Positions 1 to 23,670 of a stretch of DNA of 23,670 bases are shown one piece after another. Both the position numbers and the translations under genes were made by a program. Each line of letters begins with the position of its first letter. The stretch's first letter is position 1. The stretch spans positions 7,344 to 31,013 of the forward strand of contig BQXS01009722.1 of assembly GCA_024181965.1 (NCBI GenBank), in the 5' to 3' direction. This stretch comes from Aduncisulcus paluster (lineage: Eukaryota > Fornicata). The notes under the pieces were generated by a model. It made no database searches, was not told the DNA's origin, and saw only the letters and a program-made list of their open reading frames with translations.

Positions 1-3000
1 CATAATCGTAATATTCATACTCATATTCAGAAGAAGAGAACATTCCATCAATATAATGTTCCTCTTCTTTTTCTCTTTCTTCCTCTTCTTCCTCTTCTTC
101 CTCTTCCTCTTCTTTTGTGGTAGGGGTGAAATGAAGAGTACTGCCAAGCCCTACTTCACATTGAAATAGAATCTCAGTAGAATCATCTCTATCATAATCA
201 TCTTTCTCATTAGCAATGCTATTTTTAGATACTTGAGAATGAGAAGGTATTATACCAAGTATTTCAGTCTGAGATAGAGACAATGTTGTTGAATCATCAC
301 GTGAAACCGTGCGATGTGCGTTCTTATCCTTGTTCTTATCCTCGTTCTTGGTTGTTGACTGTGCTTGTGGAGTTGTCAATGTAGAAGGTAAGAGAAGAGT
401 AGAAGAGGCTGAAAGAACTTCAGTCGCAGAAAGAGTCGAAGAAGTCTTTAACAAATCAAGACATATATCAATATCATTATCAAAATCACCACCATCTTCA
501 ATAGTAGTCTTTGATAACCCGACATTCTGTTGTGGAATAAATTGGTCATGTTTATCCGTTGTTCTATGTTTGCCTCTCGTAGGTTTATCTTGATCATCAC
601 CCGCTTCTGTTCCAAAAATAGATGATGAGAAAGAAGATGAGAAAGTAGAAGTCCCTGAGAAACTTGTTGTTGTCGATGCCGCAGAAGATGCACCAGTCGC
701 AGCAGTAGTAGGGTGGTGCTGAGCAGCAGTTATAACAGATTCATCCAACACATGGAGGTGAGCTCTTCCAGAATCAGAGTATTCAATTCCCAATTTCATA
801 AGTTTCTTCTCAGAATCTAATTTTGGAACATCTTGCCTTCTCTTCTTCTTTCTCTTTGTTCGTTTTCTCTTTGTTCGTTTTTTCTGCTTCCTGCTTTGCA
901 GCTGGTGCTCTACCTTATCCTTGATCTTCTTCTTTCCACCCTCTCTCAATTCATCACCATCTTTTTCTTCTTTTTTTTGTATGATTTCATTGTCTTCAAG
1001 ATCCAGAAAGTCAGAAAAAGAATAAGAAGAAGGAGAGAATGATTCTTCATATTCATATTCATACGCATATTCAAATAAAGGAGAAGGTGCAGATCCGACA
1101 ACTCCTTCTTTCTCAGACAATCTAATTTTAGAACGAGCAGATCTTGGCGATATAATCACGCTCTCTTGTTGTTGCTGCTGTTGCTCGACCCTTTCATGAT
1201 CATCATATAATGTGAGTACATCGTCAGGTAAAGATTCAACAAGCTTAGAAAGTTGACTATTCTCCATCTTTGAACCAAATACCCGCTCTCTTTCCTCTTT
1301 CTTCTTTCTCAATTCAGCTGTTATTTGAGAAGGGGATTTGTTGGCCGATTCTGAAGGATGCATGGGCGATTGACGACGTTGTTGACCTTTCTTGACCTTT
1401 TGAGAAGAACCTGTGCCATGTCTCTGATGTGAAGAATATCTTCCTTTCTTTTCCTTCACATTCATCTCTTCTTCTCTTCTAATCTTCTCTCTAATCCCAT
1501 GAGAGATCCTTGGAGGAGGAGGTAACCTTTTCTTCTTCATTTTAACAGCACAACGCATGCTCTGTGGAGGAGGATAGAGTTGCTTTGCTTTAATCTTACG
1601 AACAGAAGAAGAAGAAGAAGAGGAAGAAGAAGAAGAGGAGGAGGAAGAAGAAGATCTATCACTGCGAATGATTCTATTTTTAGATGGTTTGATTTGTTGC
1701 TGTTTTTGAGAAAGTTTAGATATTTGAGGACTACTTTTGGAAGCAGGAAGAGGTGAATGAATAGGAGAGGAAGAGGGAGAAGGAGAGGAAGGAGAGGAAG
1801 AAGTATAAGGAATCTGAGTTGGAGCTCTTGAAGAGATTTGAATCTTCTTTTTCTGTTGTTCCATCCTTGTTTTTGGTCTATTTTTATCCCTCTTGTTTCT
1901 CAGCAACATTGCATTCCTCCTTTCTCTACCTGCAATGTCAGTTAATGGAGGTAAAGGATAAGGCGATGAAGGAAGACTACAAACATGGCGTGAAGATTCA
2001 CTATCACGAACTTCCTCTTCTTCTTGTGAATGCAATTTGTCAGCAATTCCTGGAACAACTTTTGCGTTCTTTTTCTTCCCACTTAAACCGCTATTAATAC
2101 TTCCCACTGGTCGCGAGGTCGAATCTTTGGTATCAAGTTGTGACATTTTCGATGGAATCTTCTGTCTTGGAGAGTATCTTGGAGAGTACCTTGGAGAAGA
2201 ACTGATTGAATGATCTCTCTCCTTGTCTCTTTCTTGTTTCTGATGATTGGAGCTTTGTTGTTCTTCAGAAAAGGATACTTCTCGAGGAACAATCACTTTA
2301 CCGGCTGCAACGATGCCCTTGGATCTTATATCTTTCTTCTTAGTGATTATCTCGTGTTCTTCTTTCCCTTTCATCTGACTCAAGGCTGAAGGTATTGGCG
2401 AAGCTGTTTGTACAGAGGTTGATGTTGCTTTAGTCTTATCGTGTAATCTTTCTTCTTTCTTATCTAAATACTCAGAAACTTCAGTCAAAAGAACTTTTGC
2501 TGTGGGACGAGAATCAGGATCAACACTGAGCATCTTATTGACAACAGAACACAGTTTCTTGCTATATCCACTGGTATATTTGCTCATGTGCGATACTTTT
2601 CCACGAATAAGCTTGGAAATCAACTCCGGCTGGGTCTTCGCACTGACAGGAGGTTCACCGATGCAGCATTCGTACAAAGTGGCTCCTAAGGACCATATAT
2701 CTGTCTTTTGAGAGTATTTTCCACTGAATATCTCAGGACCCATGAACAGAGGGGTGCCTACGATGGTCTCAGCAAGACTGGAGGAACTTAGAAAACGACC
2801 AACTCCAAAATCACCCAATATGGGGGTCATTTTGTTATTATCACCGATTTTCAGAAAGATATTATCCCCTTTTATGTCCCTATGTATTATTCCTATTCGG
2901 TGAATGTGAACAAGGGCAACGAGCATGGTTTCACATACACGCCATGCTCCATTTTCAGATATTCGTTTGCTTTTCTTTTGTTGAAGGTATTCTTTAAGTG

Positions 3001-3289
3001 TTCCACCCCGGCATATTTCTTGAAAGAGGAGTAAATACGATGAAATCAAGGAACTATGATATAAATGAATTGCATACGGAGACTTCACCTTTTTAAGCAA
3101 TTTAACCTCGTTCATGGCAACTTTTTTCCCTTTAGAACCGAGTTTAGACATATCGACCACTTTCAAAGCCCCTTCTTGTCCTGTTTTAAGGTGTTTCGCA
3201 GCATAGACACTAGCAAAACTTCCTGAGCCTAGTTTTTCAGTTAAAACATAGTCTGAAGCTATTTTTTTATGTGCTGGCAGTATATCCAT
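1..3289 (-). CDS. NIMA-related (NEK-like) Ser/Thr protein kinase with long disordered tail, 3' end beyond window
   Basis: The frame is open on the minus strand from ATG at 3287-3289 to the left edge: 1096 codons with no stop, so the C-terminus is missing. Residues ~14-275 are a complete protein kinase domain. Visible motifs are the glycine loop GSGSFASV (21-28), ATP lysine K43 in ALKVVD, alpha-C E61, catalytic HRDIKGDN (136-143), DFG (160-162), activation-segment end GTPLFMGPE (178-186), D197 in DIWSLG and R261. The HRDIKGDN loop and GTPLFMGPE are most like NEK family kinases; this subfamily call is my inference. All catalytic residues are present, so it should be active. The remaining >800 residues are low complexity: a serine run (genomic ~1604-1652), Lys/Arg clusters, a short RYSP repeat, and a Glu run near the left edge (58-117). 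No intron is seen. It is transcribed divergently from the CstF-50 gene, with a 196-nt spacer. Confidence 0.87.
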   Translation of the reverse strand, partial: MDILPAHKKIASDYVLTEKLGSGSFASVYAAKHLKTGQEGALKVVDMSKLGSKGKKVAMNEVKLLKKVKSPYAIHLYHSSLISSYLLLFQEICRGGTLKEYLQQKKSKRISENGAWRVCETMLVALVHIHRIGIIHRDIKGDNIFLKIGDNNKMTPILGDFGVGRFLSSSSLAETIVGTPLFMGPEIFSGKYSQKTDIWSLGATLYECCIGEPPVSAKTQPELISKLIRGKVSHMSKYTSGYSKKLCSVVNKMLSVDPDSRPTAKVLLTEVSEYLDKKEERLHDKTKATSTSVQTASPIPSALSQMKGKEEHEIITKKKDIRSKGIVAAGKVIVPREVSFSEEQQSSNHQKQERDKERDHSISSSPRYSPRYSPRQKIPSKMSQLDTKDSTSRPVGSINSGLSGKKKNAKVVPGIADKLHSQEEEEVRDSESSRHVCSLPSSPYPLPPLTDIAGRERRNAMLLRNKRDKNRPKTRMEQQKKKIQISSRAPTQIPYTSSSPSSPSPSSSPIHSPLPASKSSPQISKLSQKQQQIKPSKNRIIRSDRSSSSSSSSSSSSSSSSSVRKIKAKQLYPPPQSMRCAVKMKKKRLPPPPRISHGIREKIRREEEMNVKEKKGRYSSHQRHGTGSSQKVKKGQQRRQSPMHPSESANKSPSQITAELRKKKEERERVFGSKMENSQLSKLVESLPDDVLTLYDDHERVEQQQQQQESVIISPRSARSKIRLSEKEGVVGSAPSPLFEYAYEYEYEESFSPSSYSFSDFLDLEDNEIIQKKEEKDGDELREGGKKKIKDKVEHQLQSRKQKKRTKRKRTKRKKKRRQDVPKLDSEKKLMKLGIEYSDSGRAHLHVLDESVITAAQHHPTTAATGASSAASTTTSFSGTSTFSSSFSSSIFGTEAGDDQDKPTRGKHRTTDKHDQFIPQQNVGLSKTTIEDGGDFDNDIDICLDLLKTSSTLSATEVLSASSTLLLPSTLTTPQAQSTTKNEDKNKDKNAHRTVSRDDSTTLSLSQTEILGIIPSHSQVSKNSIANEKDDYDRDDSTEILFQCEVGLGSTLHFTPTTKEEEEEEEEEEEEREKEEEHYIDGMFSSSEYEYEYYDY

Positions 3290-3485
3290 GGCTTACTGCC
3301 TCATGAGTGTCTCACAAAACCATAATTTATTAATCAGATTGCTTCTTGTATTGTAGCCAGAGAAATGAATTTTAAAATGGGTTTTTATTTGGTCATAGAA
3401 ATTGAATATATCAAATATAATTTGCTAAAACATTGAATAAAAGAATTAGAAAAAATAGTCACGTTTCTTCGCTAAAGGTTCTGAA

Positions 3486-8687: not shown

Positions 8688-11096
8688 TTACTTTGTCCCG
8701 TAATTTCTTCGTTTTCCAATGATAGGCGAAGAACTGTGATTAGCACTCACACTAGAACAAGCCATGTCAAAGAAATCCTCAACACTAACACAAGAAGAAC
8801 TCCGACAAGTTGGACTCGAAGAAGAAGCACTCTGGTCAAAACTTTTGAGCAGTTTCTCTCTGCATGAACTCAGAGAAAGTTCTTCATAAAACAAGGAGAC
8901 TCCTGATAATAATTCTACCTTAGTATCATCAGAAACAAGACTCAATACAGATATTACATGGACACACGGATAACCATACCTGATAGGATGATGGCAGGAA
9001 CAAGTCAATGAATTTGCAACTTTACGAACACAAAAGGGATTCCCCCAGGTCTTGGACGACCATGGATTGGACTTTCCTCCCTCCTCAGTAGTTACAAACA
9101 AATGATAAGTGTCGTTCCTGAACTCCACAGAAAGAAAAGGTCGTAAATGAAATATCGATTCCCAATCTTGTTCCATCTTCGATAAGACATTTTGAAAGAC
9201 CTTTTCGCATTCATCAGTTCCTAATATATCTATAATACTACGTTCCTTAGCTTTGATATCTCTAAACACGGGTCGAATATCGTCTAAACATTCTTTCTTT
9301 AAAACACCATATGAATCAAGCTGACGATTCACACACTCGACAATGCACTCTTTCATCGTTTCCACCTTCATATCACTCTTTATACGCCGCTTCAATGATT
9401 CAGAACCACATGTAGTCCTCAGTCCAAAGTTGAATTCCATGAAATTGGTTGGAACCCAGAGCTTAAAGAGTTTTAATCCCTCTATTATTGGAGCTCTATC
9501 CGGCCGAAAGTCAGCAGTGTAAGGAACAGTGTCATGATAGAGGCGAATTATTCTTTGGATGAAATGGCGAGTTGTTGGAGAGACAGATGAATAGAAAGAA
9601 GCTAACCAACGATTAAATGAACTGTATTCTGTGACAAATATTTCACTGTCATCTTCTTCTTGGTCATCATCTTCATAACCAACGTCCTGGCTTTGTATCG
9701 TTATTTGCCTGGAAGCCTTTCGTTGTTCGTATTTCTTTCTCTCCTCGGCAACTTTTTTTGTCGACATCTTCCCCTTCTTTCTACGAGTCTTCTTTGCAAC
9801 AATTGGTTGTGGAAGACAATCGGTTGCCAACATCATTTGCTCATCAGTCGCAGAATTATCGAATAGAACAGATTTGAACTTGTCAAAAAGTTGACGAGTT
9901 TGTCGATTCGCGTGTTGAATTGATAAATGAAAATAACAAAGACGTATTTTAAAGGGAAACTTATGAGCAGCCTTAAAATCTAGCATAGCACGGCATTCTC
10001 CAGCCGAATGATCAGTAGAGAATGTTCTTACTTTCTTCCAAGGATCTTCTCCACAAACATCCAAGACAAAGTCAAGGAATTTACGGAATGAAATAGCAGT
10101 CAACTCTTCCATATATCCACAAGCAATAATATACATCGTATAATTGGGAAGGTACCCACAAAGCATGTGCAAATCTTGCTTAAGCCTACCAATTTTGAAC
10201 GTTGTGTCCCAGCTTATGGCTGTTGGGAAAAGGGAGAATAGTTTTTTCCCAATCTCTGATATCCAGAAGAAGTGATGAAGGATTTTCTCATCTTCAGTAG
10301 CACTACCCTCCTTCTCTCCATCATCTTCTTCTTCTTCTTCTTCCTCCCTCTCTTCCTCTTCTTCATCGTCTTCATCGTCTTTCTTCCTCTCTTCAGGAGG
10401 CACAGCCACTCGATATGAAAAAGAAGTGTGGAGATTCTTCAAACCATCTGAATGCTCGGTTATGGCATATTTCAAAACTTCCGTCACCTCTAAAGACTTA
10501 GAAACGTGCCCTGCTAGCAGTTGTTTCTCACTATAAAGGATTTTTCTGTCCAACGCTGATAGTGACTGACCAGGAGACATAAACTTTTTGTGGTATCTCG
10601 ACAAATAACTTCCGCTCTTAAAAAGAATTGAATTCACCAAAAATTCAATGGTTGCAGGTCCTAGATATTTTCTTTTGGTGATAGGAGGCATCCAAAGAGG
10701 AGAAACAGAAAGAGAATAGTCCTGGCATCTTTTGCAATGTGGAACCTCCTCTCGAAGTCGAAACATATCTGGTATCTTTGATTTTTTCAATTTTAGCTTA
10801 TAGTTACAATTTTTTTCAACAGAATCTTGAGTGTAAGTGAACATACATGAATAATGGAAAGCAAGAGAATGATTTATAGCCTTCTCGGCAAGAACTACAT
10901 GTTCTTTATATGTAATTGCGTATAAAACTTTTCGAACTTGGTCTTTTGTAAGGCAAATCTCTTGATCCTTTTTCCATGATGAATAAAGAGTAATATCAAG
11001 CTCCTCGCCAGGAGATGTAATTAAATAACCTTTTTTTCCGTGGATATGAATATTTTTTTTCATCATTTCACCAAAAAAGGTTATTCCCCAAATCAA
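8688..11096 (-). CDS. MULE-type (Mutator superfamily) transposase or derived protein with SWIM zinc finger
   Basis: 802 residues in one intact frame, stop TAA. MULE transposases cut and paste DNA with an RNase H-like DDE core. Candidate catalytic residues are D297 in ISWDTTFK, D362 in FSTDHSAGECRAM and E566 in GSESLKRR; the family's C..H pair between D2 and E is C387/H390 in RLCYFHL. A C-terminal SWIM finger C699-x-C701-x9-C711-x-H713 follows, as in MULE and FAR1-like proteins. The D2-E spacing (~200 residues) is long because of a Lys/Arg- and Asp/Glu-rich insert (~435-490). A Glu/Asp run (240-262) and two Cys pairs (C121/C124, C97) lie in the N-terminal part; these may be an extra metal site. 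No terminal inverted repeats were found at the ends, so it may be a domesticated gene or an element with ends I could not recognise. Its first ~27 codons are repeated beyond the scaffold gap. Confidence 0.8.
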   Translation of the reverse strand: MIWGITFFGEMMKKNIHIHGKKGYLITSPGEELDITLYSSWKKDQEICLTKDQVRKVLYAITYKEHVVLAEKAINHSLAFHYSCMFTYTQDSVEKNCNYKLKLKKSKIPDMFRLREEVPHCKRCQDYSLSVSPLWMPPITKRKYLGPATIEFLVNSILFKSGSYLSRYHKKFMSPGQSLSALDRKILYSEKQLLAGHVSKSLEVTEVLKYAITEHSDGLKNLHTSFSYRVAVPPEERKKDDEDDEEEEEREEEEEEEDDGEKEGSATEDEKILHHFFWISEIGKKLFSLFPTAISWDTTFKIGRLKQDLHMLCGYLPNYTMYIIACGYMEELTAISFRKFLDFVLDVCGEDPWKKVRTFSTDHSAGECRAMLDFKAAHKFPFKIRLCYFHLSIQHANRQTRQLFDKFKSVLFDNSATDEQMMLATDCLPQPIVAKKTRRKKGKMSTKKVAEERKKYEQRKASRQITIQSQDVGYEDDDQEEDDSEIFVTEYSSFNRWLASFYSSVSPTTRHFIQRIIRLYHDTVPYTADFRPDRAPIIEGLKLFKLWVPTNFMEFNFGLRTTCGSESLKRRIKSDMKVETMKECIVECVNRQLDSYGVLKKECLDDIRPVFRDIKAKERSIIDILGTDECEKVFQNVLSKMEQDWESIFHLRPFLSVEFRNDTYHLFVTTEEGGKSNPWSSKTWGNPFCVRKVANSLTCSCHHPIRYGYPCVHVISVLSLVSDDTKVELLSGVSLFYEELSLSSCREKLLKSFDQSASSSSPTCRSSSCVSVEDFFDMACSSVSANHSSSPIIGKRRNYGTK

Positions 11097-11305
11097 GGCA
11101 ATTTCTCTTGAACGTGTCTATCTCTTCTCAGCGGAAAGATATTTTATTAGACAAGTAAAAAAATATAAATCATAACGAATGATTATTATAAGTTGGCAGA
11201 ATTGTCATGGAAGATGTTTTAATCTAGAGATGATTCTTTCTCTGAACACCTTCCAAAATCATCAATACTTTTCTTATTAATAATTAAAAATGAACACTTT
11301 CTTAC
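11014..11305. repeat. Left copy of a ~292-nt sequence flanking the scaffold gap
   Basis: This segment covers the transposase start, the spacer and the first 16 nt of the phospholipase-like CDS. It recurs at 11326-11618 in the same orientation. The only difference I see is an A run after GACAAGT (7 A here, 8 A in the other copy). It stops exactly at the Ns, as expected for overlapping contig ends. Confidence 0.93.
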
Positions 11306-13351: not shown

Positions 13352-13974
13352 TTTCTCTCGGATGGAAGCAATTAATCTGTTTATGGTGTGAAAATATTAT
13401 TCTTTAATACTGTATTGTGTAGTTTAAAGATCTTTCCCCACATCTCAACTTGAGAATGGTATGAATAGTTTATCTGTTGTCAATATTATTATATCATTGC
13501 AATGTATATGGATGGTTGTCAGGCGATACGGCCAAACCTGAATTATATAGATATATATTGTTATCACCACTGTCCTTCCCAACTTGGGAACTTGAAGTTA
13601 TTCTCGTATGTTCTGCCTAGGAATCACTTGTTGATCTCTTCATCTTTGTCATTCAATTCATCAGTGAATGGGAATGAACATATAATAAATTTTTTGTGTA
13701 TGAAATCAAATTTATCTGCAGTTTCAAACTCAAAGGCTTTGAAGTTCAAAAATATCTCAACCTCCATAAATACTAAGAATTTACAATGAAAAATAACATT
13801 TTTCAAAAAATAATATCCTTTAATATCCAATACTTACATTTAAAATTGTCTGACTATAAGTAAAAAATGAGGATGTATTGTCTTGGCGTTTTCTCTCGTA
13901 TAAAATTACCAATTATACATTTTACAAAAAATTTATTTATTATTCATTTTTTTACGTGAAAATCTGAAAAAAAT
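13352..13974. other. Intergenic spacer with odd-centred palindromes, no gene seen
   Basis: 623 nt between the TMEM128-like and PARP genes. Two hairpin-like palindromes with a one-base centre are present: TTCCCAA-C-TTGGGAA (13576-13590) and TTTGAA-G-TTCAAA (13738-13750). A 95-codon plus-strand ORF (13502-13789) has no recognisable content. The last ~60 nt before the PARP start are very AT-rich, as upstream of other genes here. Confidence 0.5.
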
Positions 13975-16900
13975 ATGAGTAGTAAGTTATCCCAATCCCT
14001 TATGGGATTCAAGTCAGTCCTCCTACAATATTTTTCGAGGTGTAAAGAAAATATTTTGTATAAGGCAACCTCTGCAAATGATGTATTTGTGTTTTTGAAT
14101 AATTTGAAAACAATCTTTGAGAGTATCGTTCCACCTACAGCTTTCGAGACTCTTTCTGCAGAATCTTCTCTTGAAAGTAGCCCAATTCTTGAAATTATTC
14201 GAATCTCTTCGGATATTCGGAATTACTTATCTCTTGGTTATTTTTTCCTCTCAAAAGTTCGTGCACTGAAGCACGAAAGCCATCGTTTGGCCTCTGAATT
14301 CATGTCCATAAAGGAGTATGATTTCGATCAAGATACAATCGTGTCTCCCCATCCAATTTGCCATCTTCCCGCCTATATAAGCCGGATTGTTGAGTATTTT
14401 CAATATGCTCCTATTCTTCAATGGGCTCACGAAAAATGTGAATTCACTTCTTTATTGTTTGAATTGCATTATAACCCTCCAAAAGAGTATAAAACTCAAT
14501 CATTTCAATTTAGAGCCCAGAAAGACAAAGCCAAACGACAGTTTCTAGATCGTCACTTCAACAGATTGCCTCTTATCCCTCTTTGTGACTGTTTTAAGGC
14601 GACATTCTCCTGCAAATCCCCCAGACTCACAGGTGAAATATTCCATCTTGTTGATTCCATTGATATTCCGACCAAATCGACTTCATCTGTGATGGATTTT
14701 CTTGACCTGTTATTCTCCTTCTCTTCAACCGCCGAACCCACCCATGGACTCCCACTGTGTGTATTTATGCAACGACCCGTGTGTTGTATGATTAAAGACA
14801 CGCCTATACTTGCCAGTAGGCTTCGTAAGACTTCTCGAGGTGATTTTGATGCTGTTAAAATGATGGAATTCACTGCTCTCATGCCTAAGACGAGCTCACT
14901 ATCCGATATATTTGTTTCAACGTACAATTCTGCATCTTCTAAACCTTTTAATTGTAGTCTTTCATTCAGTGGTGGTATTTTGGCATCTTATGCTGCTTCC
15001 TTGCTTGCTCGTGGTAATATTACACCTATGGTGACACCTAAATTGATTGAAGTTCTCAAATTATCTCCTTCTGATGTGTCTGATTGTACAAATCCAATTA
15101 ACTTTTACTCTCCTTGTCACATTCGTCAGTGTTCTTATCATGGCATTGTTACCAATGTTAGCGAGTCCATCCTTGATGTTTTTAAGGAATTCTTCGAAGA
15201 AGATGATGAAGAAGATGAAGAAGAAGACGAATATTCGTCCTCTTCATCTTCGTGCTCATCCAAGAGTGACCATTCTTCGAAAAAAGATTATTCCTCCCCC
15301 TCTCTTCATAAAAACTTAAATGATTCCAGTCCTGAAAGCTTTGTTGGCTATAACGAATTTCACAATGCGACGAAGGATATTTTTATTTTCTCCATTGGAC
15401 TATCCTCTCCTAAATCTTCCAGAAGTAGAAGAGGTTTCTCCGAGGTTGCTTCAAGTTCTTACTTTGAGCTTTTCTCTGGGTCTGGGAGCAAAAGTTCTTC
15501 ATGTCTTGGTCGAAATGACAATGTTTCTCTTTGGGATGCATTCTGGAAACGTTCCATTGGTGCCGAGGAACGTCTGAAGAAATGCACATTACCTGTTGAC
15601 TTTGCAAGGATCATTTCCGATGTTTGTTTTGACCCATCAAGCCTTGGCCGTCTCAATGCTGCTCTTATTGATATTCCTTCACTTTATGACCCTTCTGCAC
15701 TCCTCCACAAATGCTCAAAATCATTTGCTTCCATCCATCGAAGTCTTGGCATTCGTGACAAGTCCAGTCTTGACACTGATTTGTCATTTTATTTCTCCTT
15801 GAACAAGACATTTGGCTGGATGTCTCAGAAGAAGCTTGATCCATTCTCTTTCGAGCTCATGTATTCCAGTTCCACAGATGACGACATGACCACTGATGCC
15901 TTTGAGGATGTGGATGAATGTTCATGCTCTGATGATTCTTCTCCTTCTTCATCTGAGGAACCTTCATTGCCTCATTCTGCTTCGGGAATGATGGGAGCTT
16001 ATTCATCAACTTCAATGATACATTCTGATTCATTTCCTTCACCTTCAAAAAGCGATGCCTATGTTTCATCTCTCAGAGAAAAGTTAAAAGGAATGAGCCC
16101 AAGCCAGCGCATTGATTTTCTCAAATCGATAAAAATGGAACAAGAATTGGAAATCACAAAGTTGAAAAACCAAAAGTTTGCTGTTGATAAAGAAGCGTCA
16201 CACCTAAAGGCCGAGAAAGACAAAATCAGCGATGATGTGAAAGCTTTCAGAGAGTTGGTCCGAAAAGAGAAGATGGCTTGTAAAAGAGCTGAAGATGAGT
16301 TCTATGACCACTGTAAAAAGTTGAGAGAAAGCCGTGAGGAGAAAGAACACGATCAGAAATCCCAGGCAGAAGGCTTTAAAAAATCCCTTCAGGAAACGGA
16401 GAAAGAGAAACGTAGGAAAGAGAAGGCCCGTCAAGCAGCTCTAAGAGAAGAAAGGCGTCTTTTGAAGGAAAAAAAGGAAGCAGACGATGATATCCAGGCC
16501 CAATCTTCCAGAATCACACGTGTCAGAAAATCCAGGGAAAAAGATGAAGAAGATATTGAAAAGCGTCAAAAAGAACTTGATGAATTGGAAACTAAAAAGC
16601 AGATTGCTGACAAAGGAAAAGATATCCTTGACATTGAAAAGGACCAAGAAGAGCAGAAAAGATTGACTCGGTTACGTCTGTTTTATGCTTCTTCTGCCTG
16701 GTACCCTTCTGATTGGTGCGTGTATCGTGGCATCTGTTCTTCTGATTCCGCTAAGCAGCCTGTCTTGGTTCCCTTGAAATGTCTGGATACTTTCCAAGCC
16801 TTTGTCGATGACACTTGCATCACAAAATATCTCGGCTCTGGTCGTGATGTGGTCAAGACTGAAAAATACAATTATCTCGAAGTTCACAAAGCTTACCGAA

Positions 16901-17553
16901 TCGAGAATCCTGCCCTTTGGCACAAGTATTACCTTTACCGTCAGTCTATCATCGACCAATACAAATCGATCGACGACAAATTCACTCCACTCGATGCAGC
17001 TACGGATAAAACGAAATTGGCAAAGATAATCCTTCCCAACAAACATGATCCTGCATGCCTTCCCATTGATATGTCCAAGCTGTCCGAATGTAAACTATCT
17101 CCAAAGGATATTGATACCAAAATGCCTGCAGACTACCACTCTCCGGATTTGAGTGCATTTGTCAATGAGAAACTTCTATTCCATGGGACTAAAGCGAGGT
17201 TTGTGGATGCTATTATGAGATGTGGTGCAGATTTTCGTCTTGCAGCCAATGGTATGTATGGACATGGAACATACTGTGCCGAAAATTCGAGCAAAAGTGA
17301 CCAATACTGTGTATGTGGTGATGATAAACTTTACCCGATGTTTATTACTCGTGTTGTTATGGGTCCATGTCCTTACAAATCCCCAACGACTTGTAATGGA
17401 AGGATCAAACCTCCTCCAATTCCTGGAACTGATCTATTGTACACATCAATTCATGGAAGATTTAGAGAGTGGTCTCAGCATGAATTCGTTGTGTATGAGC
17501 TAAGTTGCTTCTACCCTCAGTATTTGATGTGGTACAAACGAGTCCAGAAATAA
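13975..17553 (+). CDS. PARP-family ADP-ribosyltransferase with coiled coil
   Basis: 1192 residues, stop TAA, no intron. PARPs transfer ADP-ribose from NAD+ to proteins or nucleic acids. The C-terminal ~280 residues hold the catalytic region: RIENPALWHKYYLYRQ (a segment found before PARP/tankyrase-type domains), then KLLFHGT (H1070), MYGHGTYCAENSSKSDQY (Y1100) and HEFVVYELS (E1170). The H-Y-E triad is thus intact, which is compatible with chain elongation, although triad alone does not prove poly- over mono-transfer. Residues ~700-900 are a long charged coiled coil. An acidic run lies at ~408-421, followed by Ser-rich sequence and another Asp/Ser-rich patch at ~640-670. Residues 1-400 and ~470-630 match nothing I recognise. 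No BRCT, WGR, zinc finger or macrodomain is visible. It may act as a damage or stress sensor, but localisation is not shown by the sequence. Confidence 0.92.
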   Translation: MSSKLSQSLMGFKSVLLQYFSRCKENILYKATSANDVFVFLNNLKTIFESIVPPTAFETLSAESSLESSPILEIIRISSDIRNYLSLGYFFLSKVRALKHESHRLASEFMSIKEYDFDQDTIVSPHPICHLPAYISRIVEYFQYAPILQWAHEKCEFTSLLFELHYNPPKEYKTQSFQFRAQKDKAKRQFLDRHFNRLPLIPLCDCFKATFSCKSPRLTGEIFHLVDSIDIPTKSTSSVMDFLDLLFSFSSTAEPTHGLPLCVFMQRPVCCMIKDTPILASRLRKTSRGDFDAVKMMEFTALMPKTSSLSDIFVSTYNSASSKPFNCSLSFSGGILASYAASLLARGNITPMVTPKLIEVLKLSPSDVSDCTNPINFYSPCHIRQCSYHGIVTNVSESILDVFKEFFEEDDEEDEEEDEYSSSSSSCSSKSDHSSKKDYSSPSLHKNLNDSSPESFVGYNEFHNATKDIFIFSIGLSSPKSSRSRRGFSEVASSSYFELFSGSGSKSSSCLGRNDNVSLWDAFWKRSIGAEERLKKCTLPVDFARIISDVCFDPSSLGRLNAALIDIPSLYDPSALLHKCSKSFASIHRSLGIRDKSSLDTDLSFYFSLNKTFGWMSQKKLDPFSFELMYSSSTDDDMTTDAFEDVDECSCSDDSSPSSSEEPSLPHSASGMMGAYSSTSMIHSDSFPSPSKSDAYVSSLREKLKGMSPSQRIDFLKSIKMEQELEITKLKNQKFAVDKEASHLKAEKDKISDDVKAFRELVRKEKMACKRAEDEFYDHCKKLRESREEKEHDQKSQAEGFKKSLQETEKEKRRKEKARQAALREERRLLKEKKEADDDIQAQSSRITRVRKSREKDEEDIEKRQKELDELETKKQIADKGKDILDIEKDQEEQKRLTRLRLFYASSAWYPSDWCVYRGICSSDSAKQPVLVPLKCLDTFQAFVDDTCITKYLGSGRDVVKTEKYNYLEVHKAYRIENPALWHKYYLYRQSIIDQYKSIDDKFTPLDAATDKTKLAKIILPNKHDPACLPIDMSKLSECKLSPKDIDTKMPADYHSPDLSAFVNEKLLFHGTKARFVDAIMRCGADFRLAANGMYGHGTYCAENSSKSDQYCVCGDDKLYPMFITRVVMGPCPYKSPTTCNGRIKPPPIPGTDLLYTSIHGRFREWSQHEFVVYELSCFYPQYLMWYKRVQK

Positions 17554-18071: not shown

Positions 18072-21000
18072 ATGGATCCAATGCCAAGCTCAGAACGTAG
18101 CCAAGATATTGTATGTTTCTAAAAGTTTTCGAATTTATACATTTTATGATGTTTGATATAATTAATTTGAAAATTAATGCCCATATTGCTTTCATAAACC
18201 CATTTTCTCTTTCGGGTGTGTTTTATTGCTTTATTTCAACCAAATGCACAATTAATTTATTAGATTCAAGAAGTTAAGCCAGAGTTTATTCATGAAGGTG
18301 ACAAATCTTGCTCTCCAATTCCTCGAGATTGCCCGAATGTTAAGAGTCCTGATATAACTGTCATCAAAGCCAAGAATAGGACCAAGGAAAAAGGCGATAG
18401 AGAATATGATCAGTGTTCTGCAGCACAAAAGATGATGAAAGGAGAGCGTAATTGGGGAGAATTTACAGATATCTCCCTTCCTTTCTCCACATCTACTCCC
18501 ATTAAAGGCGCTTATATTTGTATTGGAGGAAAATCATCCAGTTCTCCACCCCCATCACACCTTATCTTCTCTCTTACATCTTCAAAGGGGGAGAAAATGT
18601 TTAAAAAATATAAATTTCTTGAATCAGAAATAATAAGCTTATTATATTTATTCTCGGAAACTGATAGCTGGTTCTTTCTCCCTATTGATCTCTCTGATGT
18701 TGTTCTGTGTGAGATTACAGGGAAAGGAAGAAAGAAAGAGTCTTTTACTATCTTCTCCCTCATATTTTTTCGAGAAGAAACACATGAAGAAACTATATTT
18801 CGTGAAGCCAAAGAAGCTTTTCGAGAGAAACTATGGTCAGAAGCTCAAGTTGTGAAACCAGAGTTTGTTCAGGAAGGAGATAGAAATTCTCAAGGTAGAT
18901 ATTCTATTCCTATTCCGCGTGGTGATCCAAAGCTTGTAGATCCTTCATTCTCAATGGTAAAGTGCAAGGATGATTCGAAGAGTAAGGAATCTGAGGAGTT
19001 TGATCAGAGTTCAGATGCACAAAGAATGTTAAAAGGGGATCGCTTTGTGCGGTTATCCTATCTTTCCATCCCTTTCCCATCACCTAGTCCAATGAAAGGT
19101 GCTTATATCTGTGTTTATAAGTATGATAGTTCACCCTCTCTTCTCTTCACTTTCACTGATTGTGATGGTAAGAAGACACGCAAGAAGTATGAATTCACAA
19201 GACCTAAACATGTATTTGAATGGCACTTCCTTCCTATTGATCTGGATAATGTTGTATTGTGTGAGATTGAAGGGAAGGGAACGTGGAAAGAGAAGAATAG
19301 TCGATGTTTTATCATCCTCTCCCTCGTATTCCTTCGAGAAGAAACCCCTGAAGAACGTTGTATTCGAGAATCCATTGAGGAGCAATGGTCTAAAGCTGTA
19401 TGTTCATTATATTTTATTGGTTTAATATTTTCACATTTCTTTGTTTTATTATTTGATACGATTCACGCTAATCTTATTTAACAATATTATCTCTCGATTT
19501 GTTTCTAATACCATTATATATCTCTTTTTTCAAAAATGATATGTAGCCCACCATTAAATCAGAGTTTATTCATAGAGGAAATTATCTTTGCTCTCCAATT
19601 CCTCGAGATTGCCCGAATGTTAAGAGTCCTGATATAACTGCTATCGAGTCCAAGAATAGGACCAAGAGAAAAGGTGATAGAGAATATGATCAGTGTTCTG
19701 CAGCACAAAAGATGATGAAAGGAGAGGGTAATCGGGGAAAATTTACAGATATCTCCCTTCCTTTCTCCACATCTACCCCCATTAAAGGTGCTTATATTTG
19801 TATTGGAGGAGGATACTATTTCTGTCCACCCTCACGCCTTATCTTCTCTTTAACATCTTCAAACGGGGAGAAAATGGTTAAAAAATATGAATTTCCTGGA
19901 TTAGAAAAAACAAGCTGGTTCTTTCTCCCTATTGATCTCTCTGATGTTGTTCTGTGTGAGATTTCAGGGAAAGGAAGAAAGAAAGAGTATTTTGAAATCG
20001 AATCCCTTGTTTTCATTAGTAGAGAAGAAACTCCTGAAGAAATCAAAGCTTGTGAAGCCAGAGAGAAACTATGGTCTGAAACTCCAGTTGTGAAACCAAA
20101 GTTTGTTCAGGAAGGAGATTGGACATCTCAAGGTAGAGATTCTATTCCCATTCCGTGTGATGATCCAAAGCTTGTAGACCCTTCATTCTCAATGGTTAAG
20201 TGCAAGAATGATTCGAAGAGTAAGGAATCTGAGGAGTATGATCAGAGTTCAGGTGCTCAAAGAATGTTAAAAGGTGAAGGTTTTGTACGGTTATCCCATC
20301 TTTCCATCCCTTTCCCATCACCTAGTCCTATGAAAGGTGCTTTTATCTATGTGGATGAAGATAATAGTTCACCCTCTCTTCTCTTCACTTTCACTGATTG
20401 TGATGGTAAGAAGACTTCCAAGAAGTATGAATTCACAGAACCTAAACATTACTATGAATGGCATTTCCTTCCTATTGATCTGGATAATGTTGTATTGTGT
20501 GAGATTGAAGGGAAAGGAACGTGGAGACGGAAGAATAGTCGATACTTTGACATCGACTCCCTTATATTCTTTCGAGAAGAAACCCCTGAAGAACGTTGTA
20601 TTCGAGAATCCATTGAGGAACAATGGTCTAAAGCTGTATGTTCATTATATTTTATTGGTTTAATATTTTCGCATTTCTTTGTTTTATTGATACGATTCAC
20701 GCTAATCTTATTTTACAATATTATCTCTCGATTTGTTTCTAATACCATTATATATCTCTTTTTCAAAAATGATATGTAGCCCACCATTAAATCAGAGTTT
20801 ATTCATGAAGGTGACGAATCTTGCTCTCCAATTCCCCGAGACTCCCCAAATGTTAAGAGTCCTGATATAACTGTCATCAAAGCAAAGAATAGGACCAAGG
20901 GAAAAGGTGATAGAGAATATGATCAGAGTTCTGCAGCACAAAAGATGATGAAAGGAGAGGGTTATCGGGGAGAATTTACAGAAATCTCCCTTCCTTTCTC

Positions 21001-23670
21001 CACATCTACTCCCATTAAAGGTGCTTACATTTGTATTCGAGGAAAATATACCCTATCACCCTCACACCTTATCTTCTCTTTAACATCTTCAAAGGGGGAG
21101 AAAATATTTAAAAAATATGAATTTCTTGAATTTGGAGGTTATCATTGGTATTATCTCCCTATTGATCTTTCTGATGTTGTTTTGTGTGAGATTAGAGGGA
21201 AAGGAAATTGGGAAGAGTCTTTTGGAATTATATCTCTGAAAAAGTGTTTTTTTTCTATCCGATCCCTTGTTTTCATTAGTAGAGAAGAAACTTTTGAAGA
21301 AACTCAATCTCGTGAAGCCAGAGAGAAACTATGGTCTGAAGTTCCTGTTGTGAAATCCGAATTTGTTGGGATTGGACACAAAGAATTTCAGCCGATTCAA
21401 TTTGATGACCCAGCAATAATTTACCCTTCATTTTCAATGGTTAAGGCAAAATTGGATCATTATTGTAAAGAATCTTCCGATTATGATCAGAGTGAAAGAG
21501 CAAAAAGAATGTTGGAGCTCAACTATGATGGAATTTGGTATCGTGAGTGTGATTTATTTGTGTCCCATCTTTCCATCCCTTTCCCATCACCTCGTCCAAT
21601 GAAAGGTGCCTATATTTGTGTGGATAAGGATGATAGTTCACCCTCTCTTCTCTTTACTTTCACTGATTCTGATGGCAATAAGACATCCATAAAGTATGAA
21701 TTCACAGAACCTATTTATGAATTTGAATGGTACTTTCTTCCTACCGATCTGTCGAAGATTGTGTTGTGTGAGATTGAAGGAAAAGGAATGTGGAAAGCGA
21801 AGAATACCAGAAAATTTAAAATCAATTACTTGGTTTTCCTTCAACAACGTGTTTCTTTGGTAAGAATCAGGAATATATTTGATGGTTCTTCTCGATGTAT
21901 TCCAACTCCTCGAGATGATCCAACCTTTATTTGTCCAGATTTTGCTGCAATTAAAGTAAGAAGGATCAAACCAGGAGATGTTTCCCAAGATTTTGATACT
22001 AAGAGCGATTCAGAGGGAACTATATTGGAAGATGAAACAGATCGTGATGTAATTAAAGTAACAAGCAAAGCAAAAGCAAAAGATGTCATTGGGGATGAGA
22101 TTGGACAAAAGATCATGAAAGGAGAGGTGTGTAGTTTTGAAGATGTCGGGTTTTCTTATATTTCCATTCCTTTTAAATCATCGATATCTATTAAAGGTGC
22201 TTATATCTGTTTATGTGATGGTTTGGCTGCTGGTGATACATATCTTTTCACATTTACCATATCAAATGGAAAAAAAAGATACAATACCTATCAAATTCCT
22301 AAACGTGATCGTCCATCTTGGTGGTACCTTTCGATTGATCTCTCTGATATTGTTTTGTGTGAGATTGAAGGTAGAAAGACAAAAAATAACCATTTTCGAA
22401 TTTTTTCTCTGGCATTTTATCGAAAAGAAACTCCTGATGAAGAGAATAATCGAAAAAACAGAGATTTTTGGCAAAACAGAGCGTGGATAGAAACCATAAC
22501 TATCAAACCTGAATTCATTAAGGAAGGATATAGAGATTCTATTCCCATTCCTCGAGATGATGAGTCAATCATAAATCCTTCATTTTCAGATGTTCAGGGG
22601 AAGAATGATGTCTATTGTAAGGAATTTGGGGAGTATGATCAGAGTTCAAAAGCACAAAAAATGTTAAAAGGGGAAGATTCTGTATCTTTATCCCATCTTT
22701 CCATTCCTTTTCCATCTCCTTGTCTAATGAAAGGTGCTTATATCTGTGTGGCTAATGATTTGAGTTCGCCTTCACTTCTCTTCAGATTTTCTCATTCTTG
22801 TGGCACTAAAACGTTCAAAAGGTATATATTTTCGAAATTTGAGGAACCCACTTCCAAATCCACAAAGGAAGATTTTGAATTTGAATCCAATGGATTATCC
22901 AAAGATTCGGAATTTGAATCGATAATTAATACTAGATGGTATTTCCTTCCTATAGATTTACCAAATGTTATTTTCTGTGAGATTCAAGGAAAAGGGACAT
23001 GGAAAGAGCGGTTGAGTCGAAGTTTTCAAATAGAATCCCTCATTTTCATTAAAGGTGAAGACATTCCTCCCCTTCCTTCAGATTCCACAAAGCTTATCAA
23101 ACATGACTCTTTCACTCTCACTTCCTCTGCAACCATTACATCTCAGTGCATCATTGGTCATGGTGGATTTGGTGAAGTTCTTCTTGTTAAAGTTGAAGGT
23201 ATTCCTATTCCTTGTGTTCTGAAGAAAATGCTCCATGAAGCCGATGAAAGAGTTGTTAAAGGATGTCGAAAGGAGTTCAAGATGCAACTCAAATTGTTTA
23301 CGAATCCAAAATGTTTCAATCGTATCCCTCGTCCTTTGTATATCCTTGACCTGCTTGATGCAGATATGAAAGGTGAATATGGATTTATCATGGAATATTG
23401 TGCTGGAGGCAGTGTTAAGGATTTTGCTAGAAGTTGGTGTGATGATGGCAAGTATGTGAGTGATATTGGTGATGCTGATGATAGTGAAGATTCTGATTCA
23501 TCTTGTATTTCTGATTCTGACTCCAAGAGTGATATTGGCACAACTCGTTTTGATCCCATGACACTGAACCCTGTGAAAGTGAGTGCTCTCTGTGTTGGCA
23601 TGATTGAGTGTCTTGATGATGTGTTTAGAGCAAAGAAGAGTCTTGTCCATCGAGATGTTAAACCCGATAA
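18072..23670 (+). CDS. Eight-repeat protein fused to a C-terminal protein kinase domain, 3' end beyond window
   Basis: Exons are 18072-18110, 18264-19397, 19547-20635 and 20780 to the right edge; all introns are phase 0. At least 1717 residues are encoded with no in-frame stop. After the short MDPMPSSERSQDI exon come eight ~170-210-residue repeats as four A-B pairs. Each has a polar linker with IPIPRDDP- and EYDQSSAAQKMLKGE-like wording, then a probably beta-rich core containing KGAYICI, LLFTFT, FLPIDLSDVVLCEI and SL.FFREETPEE. I do not recognise this repeat. From about residue 1538 a kinase domain follows: GHGGFGEV (G1547), VLKKM, EYCAGGSVKDF, an acidic Asp/Ser insert, then HRDVKPDN (H1711-D1713) at the window end. 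The DFG and later parts are not seen. No signal peptide or membrane segment occurs in the spliced product, so it is probably intracellular. The repeats could bind ligands or assemble the kinase; this is inference. A model made of separate genes is possible, but the three in-frame splices argue against it. Confidence 0.85.
18111..18263 (+). other. Intron 1 of the repeat-kinase gene
   Basis: 153 nt, GTATGT...TTATTAG, phase 0. It joins the 13-codon first exon to exon 2, and the join is in frame with the long repeat-coding frame. It is not similar to introns 2 and 3 beyond the splice signals. Confidence 0.75.
18264..19397 (+). repeat. Repeat pair 1 (R1 18264-18848, R2 18849-19397), one exon
   Basis: 378 codons containing one A-type and one B-type repeat. 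R1 is the longest A copy; its loop between KKYKFLE and the W-FLPIDL strand has about 10 extra residues (ISLLYLFSETD region). R2 carries FTFTDCDGKKTRKKYEF and ends REETPEERCIRESIEEQW. Confidence 0.88.
19398..19546 (+). other. Intron 2 of the repeat-kinase gene
   Basis: 149 nt, GTATGT...TATGTAG, phase 0. It is nearly identical to intron 3: I count two substitutions and two indels (4 nt and 1 nt). Read-through adds a hydrophobic tail and a stop at 19479-19481. Confidence 0.85.
19547..20635 (+). repeat. Repeat pair 2 (R3 19547-20086, R4 20087-20635), one exon
   Basis: 363 codons, a duplicate of the preceding exon. Its length differs by 15 codons through in-frame indels in loops (for example GYYFCPPSR versus KSSSSPPPSH, and EFPGLEKTSW for a stretch twice as long). 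Core blocks such as FTDISLPFSTSTPIKGAYIC are unchanged. Confidence 0.88.
20636..20779 (+). other. Intron 3 of the repeat-kinase gene
   Basis: 144 nt, GTATGT...TATGTAG, phase 0, almost identical to intron 2. It is followed by the same CCC ACC ATT AAA exon start as after intron 2. Confidence 0.85.
20780..21859 (+). repeat. Repeat pair 3 (R5 20780-21346, R6 21347-21859)
   Basis: R5 resembles R1/R3, with an insertion of about 10 residues (SFGIISLKKC region) before SLVFISREE. R6 is B-type but has a rewritten linker (FVGIGHKEFQPIQFDDPAII), and it loses the REETPEE end, which reads LQQRVSL. No intron separates it from pair 4. Confidence 0.82.
21860..23080 (+). repeat. Repeat pair 4 (R7 21860-22498, R8 22499-23080), most diverged
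   Basis: R7 keeps IKGAYICL, LSIDLSDIVLCEIEG and FYRKETPDEE but has a longer linker rich in Lys/Asp. R8 keeps LSIPFPSPCLMKGAYICV and FLPIDLPNVIFCEIQGKGTW, and has an insert of roughly 30 residues (SKSTKEDFEFESNG region) before the W-FLPIDL strand. It leads directly into the kinase domain. Confidence 0.8.
23129..23670 (+). other. Protein kinase domain, N-lobe to catalytic loop (cut by window end)
   Basis: Glycine-rich loop GHGGFGEV at 23156-23179, lysine strand PCVLKKM, hinge region IMEYCAGGSV, and catalytic HRDVKPDN at 23648 to the edge. An Asp/Ser-rich insert of ~35 residues (about 23440-23550) lies after the alpha-D region. The HRDVKPDN form is typical of Ser/Thr kinases. DFG and the activation segment lie outside the window. 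Confidence 0.88.

Follow-up and report, generated by a model that had tools for sequence, protein, structure and literature searches.

When analyzing a 23,670-nucleotide stretch of the Aduncisulcus paluster genome (contig BQXS01009722.1; the whole stretch is called the window below), we noticed a gene encoding eight tandem repeats followed by a protein kinase domain, which belongs to a large repeat family in this organism. With moderate confidence, we read its product as a cytosolic sensor kinase within a diversified recognition repertoire, with a patch of hypervariable positions under positive selection. A. paluster is a free-living flagellate of the phylum Fornicata, and its published genome comprises 29.4 Mb in 25,863 contigs assembled from Illumina reads (PMC9933649).

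The exons at 18072-18110, 18264-19397, 19547-20635, and 20780-23670 splice in frame to give 1717 residues without a stop, and each of the three introns has the form GTATGT...TAG (Table 1). The eight repeats span residues 14 to 1517, are 169 to 215 residues long, and share 35 to 83% identity with one another, a similarity far beyond chance. Proteins P0004 and P0010 start with the identical spliced residues MDP.PSSERSQDI/IQ, and the EEQWSKA/P junction is common to P0004, P0005, and P0010 (slashes mark the junctions). The original prediction of three in-frame splices joining eight repeats to a kinase had its coordinates right: the frame is open throughout, and the predicted junctions are backed by paralogous loci and by these three database proteins. 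The kinase in the window is incomplete, cut at HRDVKPD, because the last base of the window is the end of the contig.

Table 1. Coordinates of the array-kinase gene and its parts in the window
Feature	Position	Strand	Remarks
Exon 1, 13 residues, MDPMPSSERSQDI	18072..18110	+	Exon and splice shared by paralogues L015, L017 and proteins P0004, P0010
Intron 1, GTATGT...TAG	18111..18263	+	Copies in L015 and L017 are 94% and 91% identical
Repeat R1, type A, exon 2	18264..18839	+	Repeat comparison
Repeat R2, type B	18840..19391	+	AlphaFold model m2a024e49f395, pLDDT 86.4, galactose-binding-like fold
Intron 2	19398..19546	+	96.6-98.7% identity to copies at three further loci
Repeat R3, type A, exon 3	19547..20077	+	Exon 2 ends with the codons of its first two residues
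Repeat R4, type B, exon 3	20078..20629	+	R3-R4 model m60c896b8d73c, pLDDT 93.1
R4 variable codons, repeat positions 68-71 (example)	20279..20290	+	Position 70 is not one of the 13
R4 variable codons, repeat positions 93-96 (example)	20354..20365	+	Codon variability analysis
R4 repeat positions 148-160	20519..20557	+	Variable codons 148, 150, 151, 156, 158, 160
Intron 3	20636..20779	+	Matches intron 2 at 142/144 aligned bases, 5 gap bases
Repeat R5, type A, exon 4	20780..21337	+	First two residues from exon 3
Repeat R6, type B	21338..21844	+	Repeat comparison
Repeat R7, probably type A, with insert	21845..22489	+	Most divergent, 35-39% identical to the other repeats
Repeat R8, type B	22490..23068	+	Repeat comparison
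Linker and protein kinase domain to HRDVKPD	23069..23670	+	Ends at the contig end; longer relatives known

Three other coding regions were seen in the window. A 1197-residue open reading frame (ORF) upstream of the array gene (13960-17553, plus strand) has a C-terminal PARP catalytic domain (E value of 6e-14), a second, typical protein kinase lies at 5-3292 on the minus strand (Pfam E value of 2.3e-55), and a MULE transposase domain at 8688-11117 on the minus strand, just above the cutoff (Pfam E value of 3.1e-6), marks a copy or remnant of a DNA transposon.

Along the array, repeats of type A (R1, R3, R5, and probably R7) and type B (R2, R4, R6, and R8) alternate. Identity is 76 to 78% among R1, R3, and R5, 83% between R2 and R4, and 52 to 62% for the other B pairs, compared with 45 to 48% between R1/R3/R5 and R2/R4. 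Exons 2 and 3 each encode one A-B pair, and since an A and a B repeat together make up whole proteins of about 360 residues, we read the window gene as a series of four A-B pairs. The existence of such short two-repeat proteins points to the pair as the evolutionary unit. Among 103 proteins examined, 81 have two repeats and 56 terminate in LPW followed by K, E, Q, or R.

Pfam scans of 19 repeats gave no match below an E value of 0.04, the best match of any family (E value of 0.04) being to an unrelated model. No F5/8 type C, CBM32, ANAPC10, or related Pfam profile matched the 19 repeats, the window exons, or P0001 (the translation of an ORF at locus L008, equal to P0002 and excluded from record counts), and no PDB sequence matched the repeat at E values up to 10. 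AlphaFold reached a pLDDT of 86 using the eight window repeats only and of 93 for R3-R4 with 64 short proteins. The best PDB fold matches to these models were APC10/DOC1, CBM32, and F5/8 type C (discoidin) domains, with moderate TM-scores of about 0.4 to 0.5; cupins also rank high in the Foldseek list for the A-B pair, although their TM-scores do not exceed about 0.15 and their root mean square deviations are above 19. By predicted fold, the repeat is a galactose-binding-domain-like β-sandwich jelly roll. The original prediction of a β-sandwich is thereby borne out at the level of models, and its statement that the repeat belongs to no named family stands for sequence, as judged from Pfam and PDB, but not for the predicted fold, which is known. 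A new fold was considered and is not supported, given the galactose-binding-like matches; the repeat is novel in sequence on what is predicted to be a known fold. Among the best matches listed in a literature search on hypervariable discoidin-like or galactose-binding-like families, nothing concerned the A-B repeat family.

The A-B repeats share the predicted β-sandwich with APC10/DOC1, CBM32, and F5/8 type C domains but differ from this fold group in having no sequence match to it, two alternating types, and hypervariable positions. Most single-domain matches to CBM32 begin near repeat residue 22 to 32 and leave an N-terminal stretch and a C-terminal helix outside. The discoidin domain receptors DDR1 and DDR2, a DDR1 structure being in the fold list, likewise combine a discoidin-like domain and a kinase in one protein. 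DDRs are transmembrane tyrosine kinases, however, whereas a crude scan of the incomplete window protein shows no strong hydrophobic segment, a related kinase is nearest in the PDB to AAK1 and calcium/calmodulin-dependent kinases, and A. paluster arrays reach ten repeats.

The protein is not singular, and we found its repeat in 239 protein records (P0002 to P0240) with 685 repeat matches, some partial or split. Of these records, 233 are named A. paluster, 2 are EukProt sequences from the same strain, NY0171, and 4 have no species name. No relative outside A. paluster was found in searches of protein records at E values up to 1e-3 or up to 1, which relied on shared 5-residue words and limited lengths, so that distant relatives could escape. 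The gene number is uncertain in both directions, since some records are partial and may overlap and lengths beyond the searched ranges are missed. In 7.09 Mb of the genome (397 contigs), there are at least 153 matches to R4, with 150 of 300 candidates scored. Some copies are transcribed, as the EukProt sequences P0147 and P0153 contain the repeat; their best relatives among the proteins compared are about 57% and 64 to 69% identical, but the 90% clustering of the database would have merged any closer ones.

The repeat-kinase fusion recurs, as the earlier reading had suggested one should look for, in the 82 of the 239 records that show kinase motifs; none of the 239 is assigned to another species. 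The remaining 157 records have no kinase motif, and many of them are partial, although the short A-B proteins seem to be kinase-less by design. Among 10 further records scanned, 2 (P0207 and P0216) have a thioredoxin after the A-B pair; TXNL1, which joins thioredoxin to a sandwich domain, is among the fold neighbors of the repeat. A STAND/NLR fusion was considered for P0065, which has precomputed STAND-like domains, and was rejected: Pfam best reads an ABC transporter behind the A-B pair, and the NACHT match is one among many P-loop models, via the ABC transporter ATPase. P0065, P0041 (AAA), P0060, and P0064 may be merged gene models and were not counted as fusions. In a crude scan, hydropathy over 19 residues peaked at 1.49 in the window protein, whose C terminus is missing, and no signal peptide stands out in it. 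The same crude scan of 241 sequences found a 19-residue stretch above 1.9 in 15 and a hydrophobic N terminus in 4, so solubility is not evident for all records.

The kinase domain starts near residue 1530 of the window protein, with a glycine loop (GHGGFGEV), a VAIK-type lysine (VLKK), and an HRD motif (HRDVKPD). Pfam scores it weakly (E values of 0.049 and 0.066, below the cutoff) because the contig ends at the last base of the window; the kinase of the longer relative P0001 scores 8.2e-19, and a DLG motif was found in longer relatives. All four catalytic motifs sought are kept in 38 of the 82 kinase-motif records, the other 44 being partial or without one of the four, and the glycine loop follows the first repeat in 70 of the 70 records that have one. 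The nearest PDB entries to a related kinase are AAK1 and calcium/calmodulin-dependent kinases. With pN/pS values of 0.23 to 0.73 (7 sequences compared in 21 pairs, with a shorter one set aside), the kinase domain of the family looks constrained.

We investigated variability within the repeats in 63 DNA sources, which gave 194 repeat hits and, after duplicate removal, 132 copies (69 B, 56 A, and 7 unclassified, which were dropped). The B framework codons checked are nearly fixed, silent sites included (CCT in 68 of 69 copies at position 78 and ATT in 68 of 69 at position 143); the framework of the 56 A copies is less fixed. Thirteen B positions (68, 69, 71, 93-96, 125, 150, 151, 156, 158, and 160) have entropies of 2.4 to 3.7 bits, and each accepts 9 to 17 residue types in the 69 B copies and 6 to 16 in the 56 A copies, with positions 150 and 151 less variable in A than in B. 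Further sites vary as well, e.g., 15, 18, 52, 53, 59, 62, and 165-167. Over 157 sites, entropy in A correlates with entropy in B (Spearman coefficient of 0.61), and the six positions from 148 to 160 show 111 distinct combinations in 117 motif-picked copies.

By predicted strand order, the 13 positions fall in or beside four loops joining strands at one end of the sandwich and, where the last strand begins, on every second residue. Using loop limits fixed before the entropies were known, we found that the loops exceeded the rest of residues 65 to 165 by 1.11 bits in A and 0.96 bits in B, which 0 of 100 rotations reached for either type; with one loop moved by one residue, the excess was 1.25 (A) and 1.11 (B) bits, reached by 1 and 0 of 100 rotations, respectively. 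Judged from strand order rather than coordinates, the 13 positions would form one exposed patch. Galactose-binding-like domains usually bind ligands at the end opposite the termini, and by strand order the variable end would be that end. We also considered that the repeats could be targets of a diversity-generating retroelement. This is disfavored because change is not confined to adenines: framework codon 86, made up of adenines alone (AAA), is the same in 64 of 69 B copies, and no base of codons 71 and 158 is constant.

For the analysis of selection, we avoided circularity by taking the 20 most variable sites from the opposite repeat type and counted single-base codon changes in independent closest pairs (22 B and 17 A). 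The variable sites had 116 replacement and 8 silent changes in B and 86 and 8 in A. The silent share of 6.5 to 8.5% compares with neutral expectations of 19.4% (B) and 23.2% (A), with P values of 4e-5 and 1.9e-4, and this deficit disfavors relaxed constraint alone. The framework had 249 replacement and 171 silent changes in B and 232 and 160 in A. Variable codons differing at two or three bases were left out of these counts (111 in B and 70 in A); in the independent B pairs, they make up 111 of the 235 changed variable codons. Pooled dN/dS in four distance classes was 1.16 to 1.86 (B) and 1.06 to 2.10 (A) at variable sites versus 0.40 to 0.51 and 0.41 to 0.68 in the framework; the variable-site values were lowest in the most distant class (1.16 and 1.06), perhaps through saturation. 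Of the 160 variable codons in the 8 closest B pairs, 71 had changed, 1.4% of these silently; in the 4 closest A pairs, variable codons had changed no more often than framework codons (9 of 80 versus 57 of 545). One B repeat of locus L019 and one of L009 differ at 25 of 176 codons, and all 25 are replacements. Replacements between close pairs are also seen at many sites of the framework and the N-terminal region. These codon patterns indicate that the variable positions are under positive selection, and the framework looks constrained.

We propose that four pairs of galactose-binding-like sandwiches display hypervariable patches, chiefly in loops at one end, to ligands, and that ligand binding would be relayed to the C-terminal Ser/Thr-type kinase as the output. 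The framework would be kept uniform while positive selection diversifies the patch, probably aided by sequence exchange between copies. The ligands may be variable or non-self, such as prey bacteria, parasites, viruses, or other clones, arrays could provide avidity or combined specificities, and the short A-B proteins are perhaps soluble partners, decoys, or donors. The architecture, the predicted fold, the number of records, the hypervariable positions, and the surplus of replacement changes at them are observed here; we infer the single exposed patch, its binding, the ligand type, the kinase output, the cytosolic site, and copy exchange. The original suggestion of ligand sensing or a scaffold thus survives mainly in its first half: sensing is likeliest, with the hypervariable, positively selected positions, which that suggestion had not mentioned, as the best evidence, and a scaffold is less favored.

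The same positions could instead belong to glycan-binding lectins for the handling of bacterial prey or of organelles, with the variable end as a CBM32-like sugar end, the kinase reporting feeding state, and prey glycans, not enemies, driving the diversification. CBM32 structures containing galactose or GalNAc do rank among the best fold matches, and food bacteria are present in the culture (PMC9933649). We nevertheless regard this as unlikely, since the window protein has no evident signal peptide and a sugar site would be expected to fix some of the variable B positions, which accept 9 to 17 residues.

A lineage-specific cytoskeletal or signaling scaffold, in which the variable positions assign copies to different cellular partners, has a model in Giardia, which belongs to the same phylum as A. 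paluster. Giardia has 198 Neks, 67% of them with ankyrin arrays, together with kinase-less protein 21.1 relatives; 71% of the Neks are reported inactive, and most are described as evolving slowly from strain to strain, apart from a subset with rapid gene gain and loss (PMC3218828). The Nek-ankyrin proteins and protein 21.1 parallel the array kinases and short A-B proteins as a huge repeat-array kinase family with kinase-less relatives. They differ in that the kinase is N-terminal in Giardia and C-terminal in A. paluster, the repeats are ankyrins rather than β-sandwiches, and the 71% inactive Neks contrast with 38 of 82 A. paluster records keeping all four catalytic motifs. The scaffold has a low probability in our view, because the deficit of silent changes is stronger than binding of fixed partners would be expected to need and because most Giardia Neks are described as slow evolving.

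Comparison of introns, flanks, and distances bears on how the sensor repeats may have diversified. The aligned bases of introns 2 and 3 are 98.6% identical, whereas silent sites differ by 16% between R2 and R4 and by 23% between R1 and R3. Among 21 short genes with flanks, alignments of at least 60 bases were obtained for 107 of 210 upstream pairs and 15 of 210 downstream pairs. The flanks of L022 and L050 are 98.5% and 99.1% identical but their coding sequences only 87.7%, with silent differences of 14.9%, and L029 and L044 are similar (flanks 97.3% and 98.0%, coding 84.5%); for L022 and L036 the relation is reversed (flanks 92.7% and 88.8%, coding 94.0%). The 9 of 190 pairs with an upstream distance below 8% have means of 4.7% upstream and 7.3 to 11.1% at framework third positions, compared with a median upstream distance of 0.40 over the 190 pairs, mostly unalignable, and framework third-position medians of 0.11 to 0.19 over 595 pairs. 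Distances of repeat halves correlate at 0.74 within A and 0.33 to 0.44 between A and B, and the two B halves at only 0.36. These patterns provisionally fit copies that exchange coding stretches. The PHI test was not significant (40 of 500 permutations at or below the observed value for B and 493 of 500 for A), and PHI on framework third positions (58 to 715 of 1000 over six settings) gave no support, possibly for lack of power.

Exchange is held as provisional because the assembly is Illumina-only, all genome data here being short-read assemblies of very similar repeats, and chimeric assembly could yield the same picture. The hypervariability itself might in part be an artifact, with near-identical copies misassembled into chimeras and unconstrained loops drifting, a concern raised by the Illumina-only genome (PMC9933649), by the lack of an ordered recombination signal in PHI, and by fungal NLRs, whose conserved repeats were found to be unreliably assembled from short reads (PMC12222747). 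We find this quite improbable: chimeras create neither single-codon residues nor a lack of silent changes, drift predicts about 20% silent changes where 6.5 to 8.5% were observed, and both framework and kinase of the family look constrained. Going further in the other direction, a pool of hundreds of A-B units, in stand-alone genes and in array exons, might actively swap short coding stretches or selectively mutate codons, giving each cell lineage an immune-like, changing repertoire of cytosolic recognition kinases; we consider this extension of the sensor reading rather doubtful, although compatible with the pair with 25 of 25 replacements, the 111 of 235 multibase codons, and the near-identical introns and flanks beside diverged coding sequences. 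Variable surface or secreted antigens with parasite-like switching of expression would also account for a large family with a conserved framework and variable positions and for the pair with nearly identical flanks (98.5% and 99.1%) around 87.7% identical coding sequences, but are highly improbable in a free-living organism whose records have a hydrophobic N terminus in only 4 cases (crude scan) and whose kinase fusion ill suits a coat protein.

If the sensor reading holds, the family joins a wider class of systems. Large diversified recognition repertoires are known in plants, animals, and bacteria, and to our knowledge, a discoidin-like sandwich with a hypervariable end has not been used as such a scaffold before. 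Fungi have them as well (PMC4986451 and PMC12222747). The A. paluster family is a concrete, testable case for diversified repertoires in free-living unicellular eukaryotes beyond those groups, and it could provide hundreds of natural surface variants of a single binding scaffold, usable as a library. The WD40, ANK, and TPR repeats of fungal NLRs (HET-D, HET-E, and NWD) have a uniform framework with a few positively selected positions on the predicted binding face, exchange between copies is proposed, and variable proteins are recognized (PMC4986451 and PMC12222747). Fungal NLR repeat sensors are the nearest parallel, since the tandem A. paluster repeats likewise have a uniform framework and a few selected positions per repeat, in loops at one end. 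They are, however, β-sandwiches of about 180 residues rather than WD40, ankyrin, or TPR units and are joined to a kinase; neither NACHT nor NB-ARC was found by Pfam in the window exons or P0001; and the closest same-type window repeats (R1/R3/R5 and R2/R4) are 76 to 83% identical, compared with the 85% threshold applied to the fungal repeats (PMC4986451). With these differences in domain, repeat kind, and identity, the A. paluster family at most works like the fungal group.

Three further kinase genes deserve mention. An ORF at L010 (2116-8706, minus strand) encodes LRR and EGF-like regions, a hydrophobic stretch interpreted as spanning the membrane, and a kinase sharing 36% identity with an array kinase; it is a possible receptor kinase in a fornicate and makes a receptor output plausible for this kinase type. 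The kinase gene at L008 (1927-6468, minus strand) contains the stretch from MIECLDDVF to DGYSLG twice, which is either a real duplication or an assembly fault. At L012 (5861-9004, plus strand), one ORF encodes two kinase-like domains, of which the second is probably a pseudokinase, as it has HGNVSPTNF where HRD..KP.N is expected.
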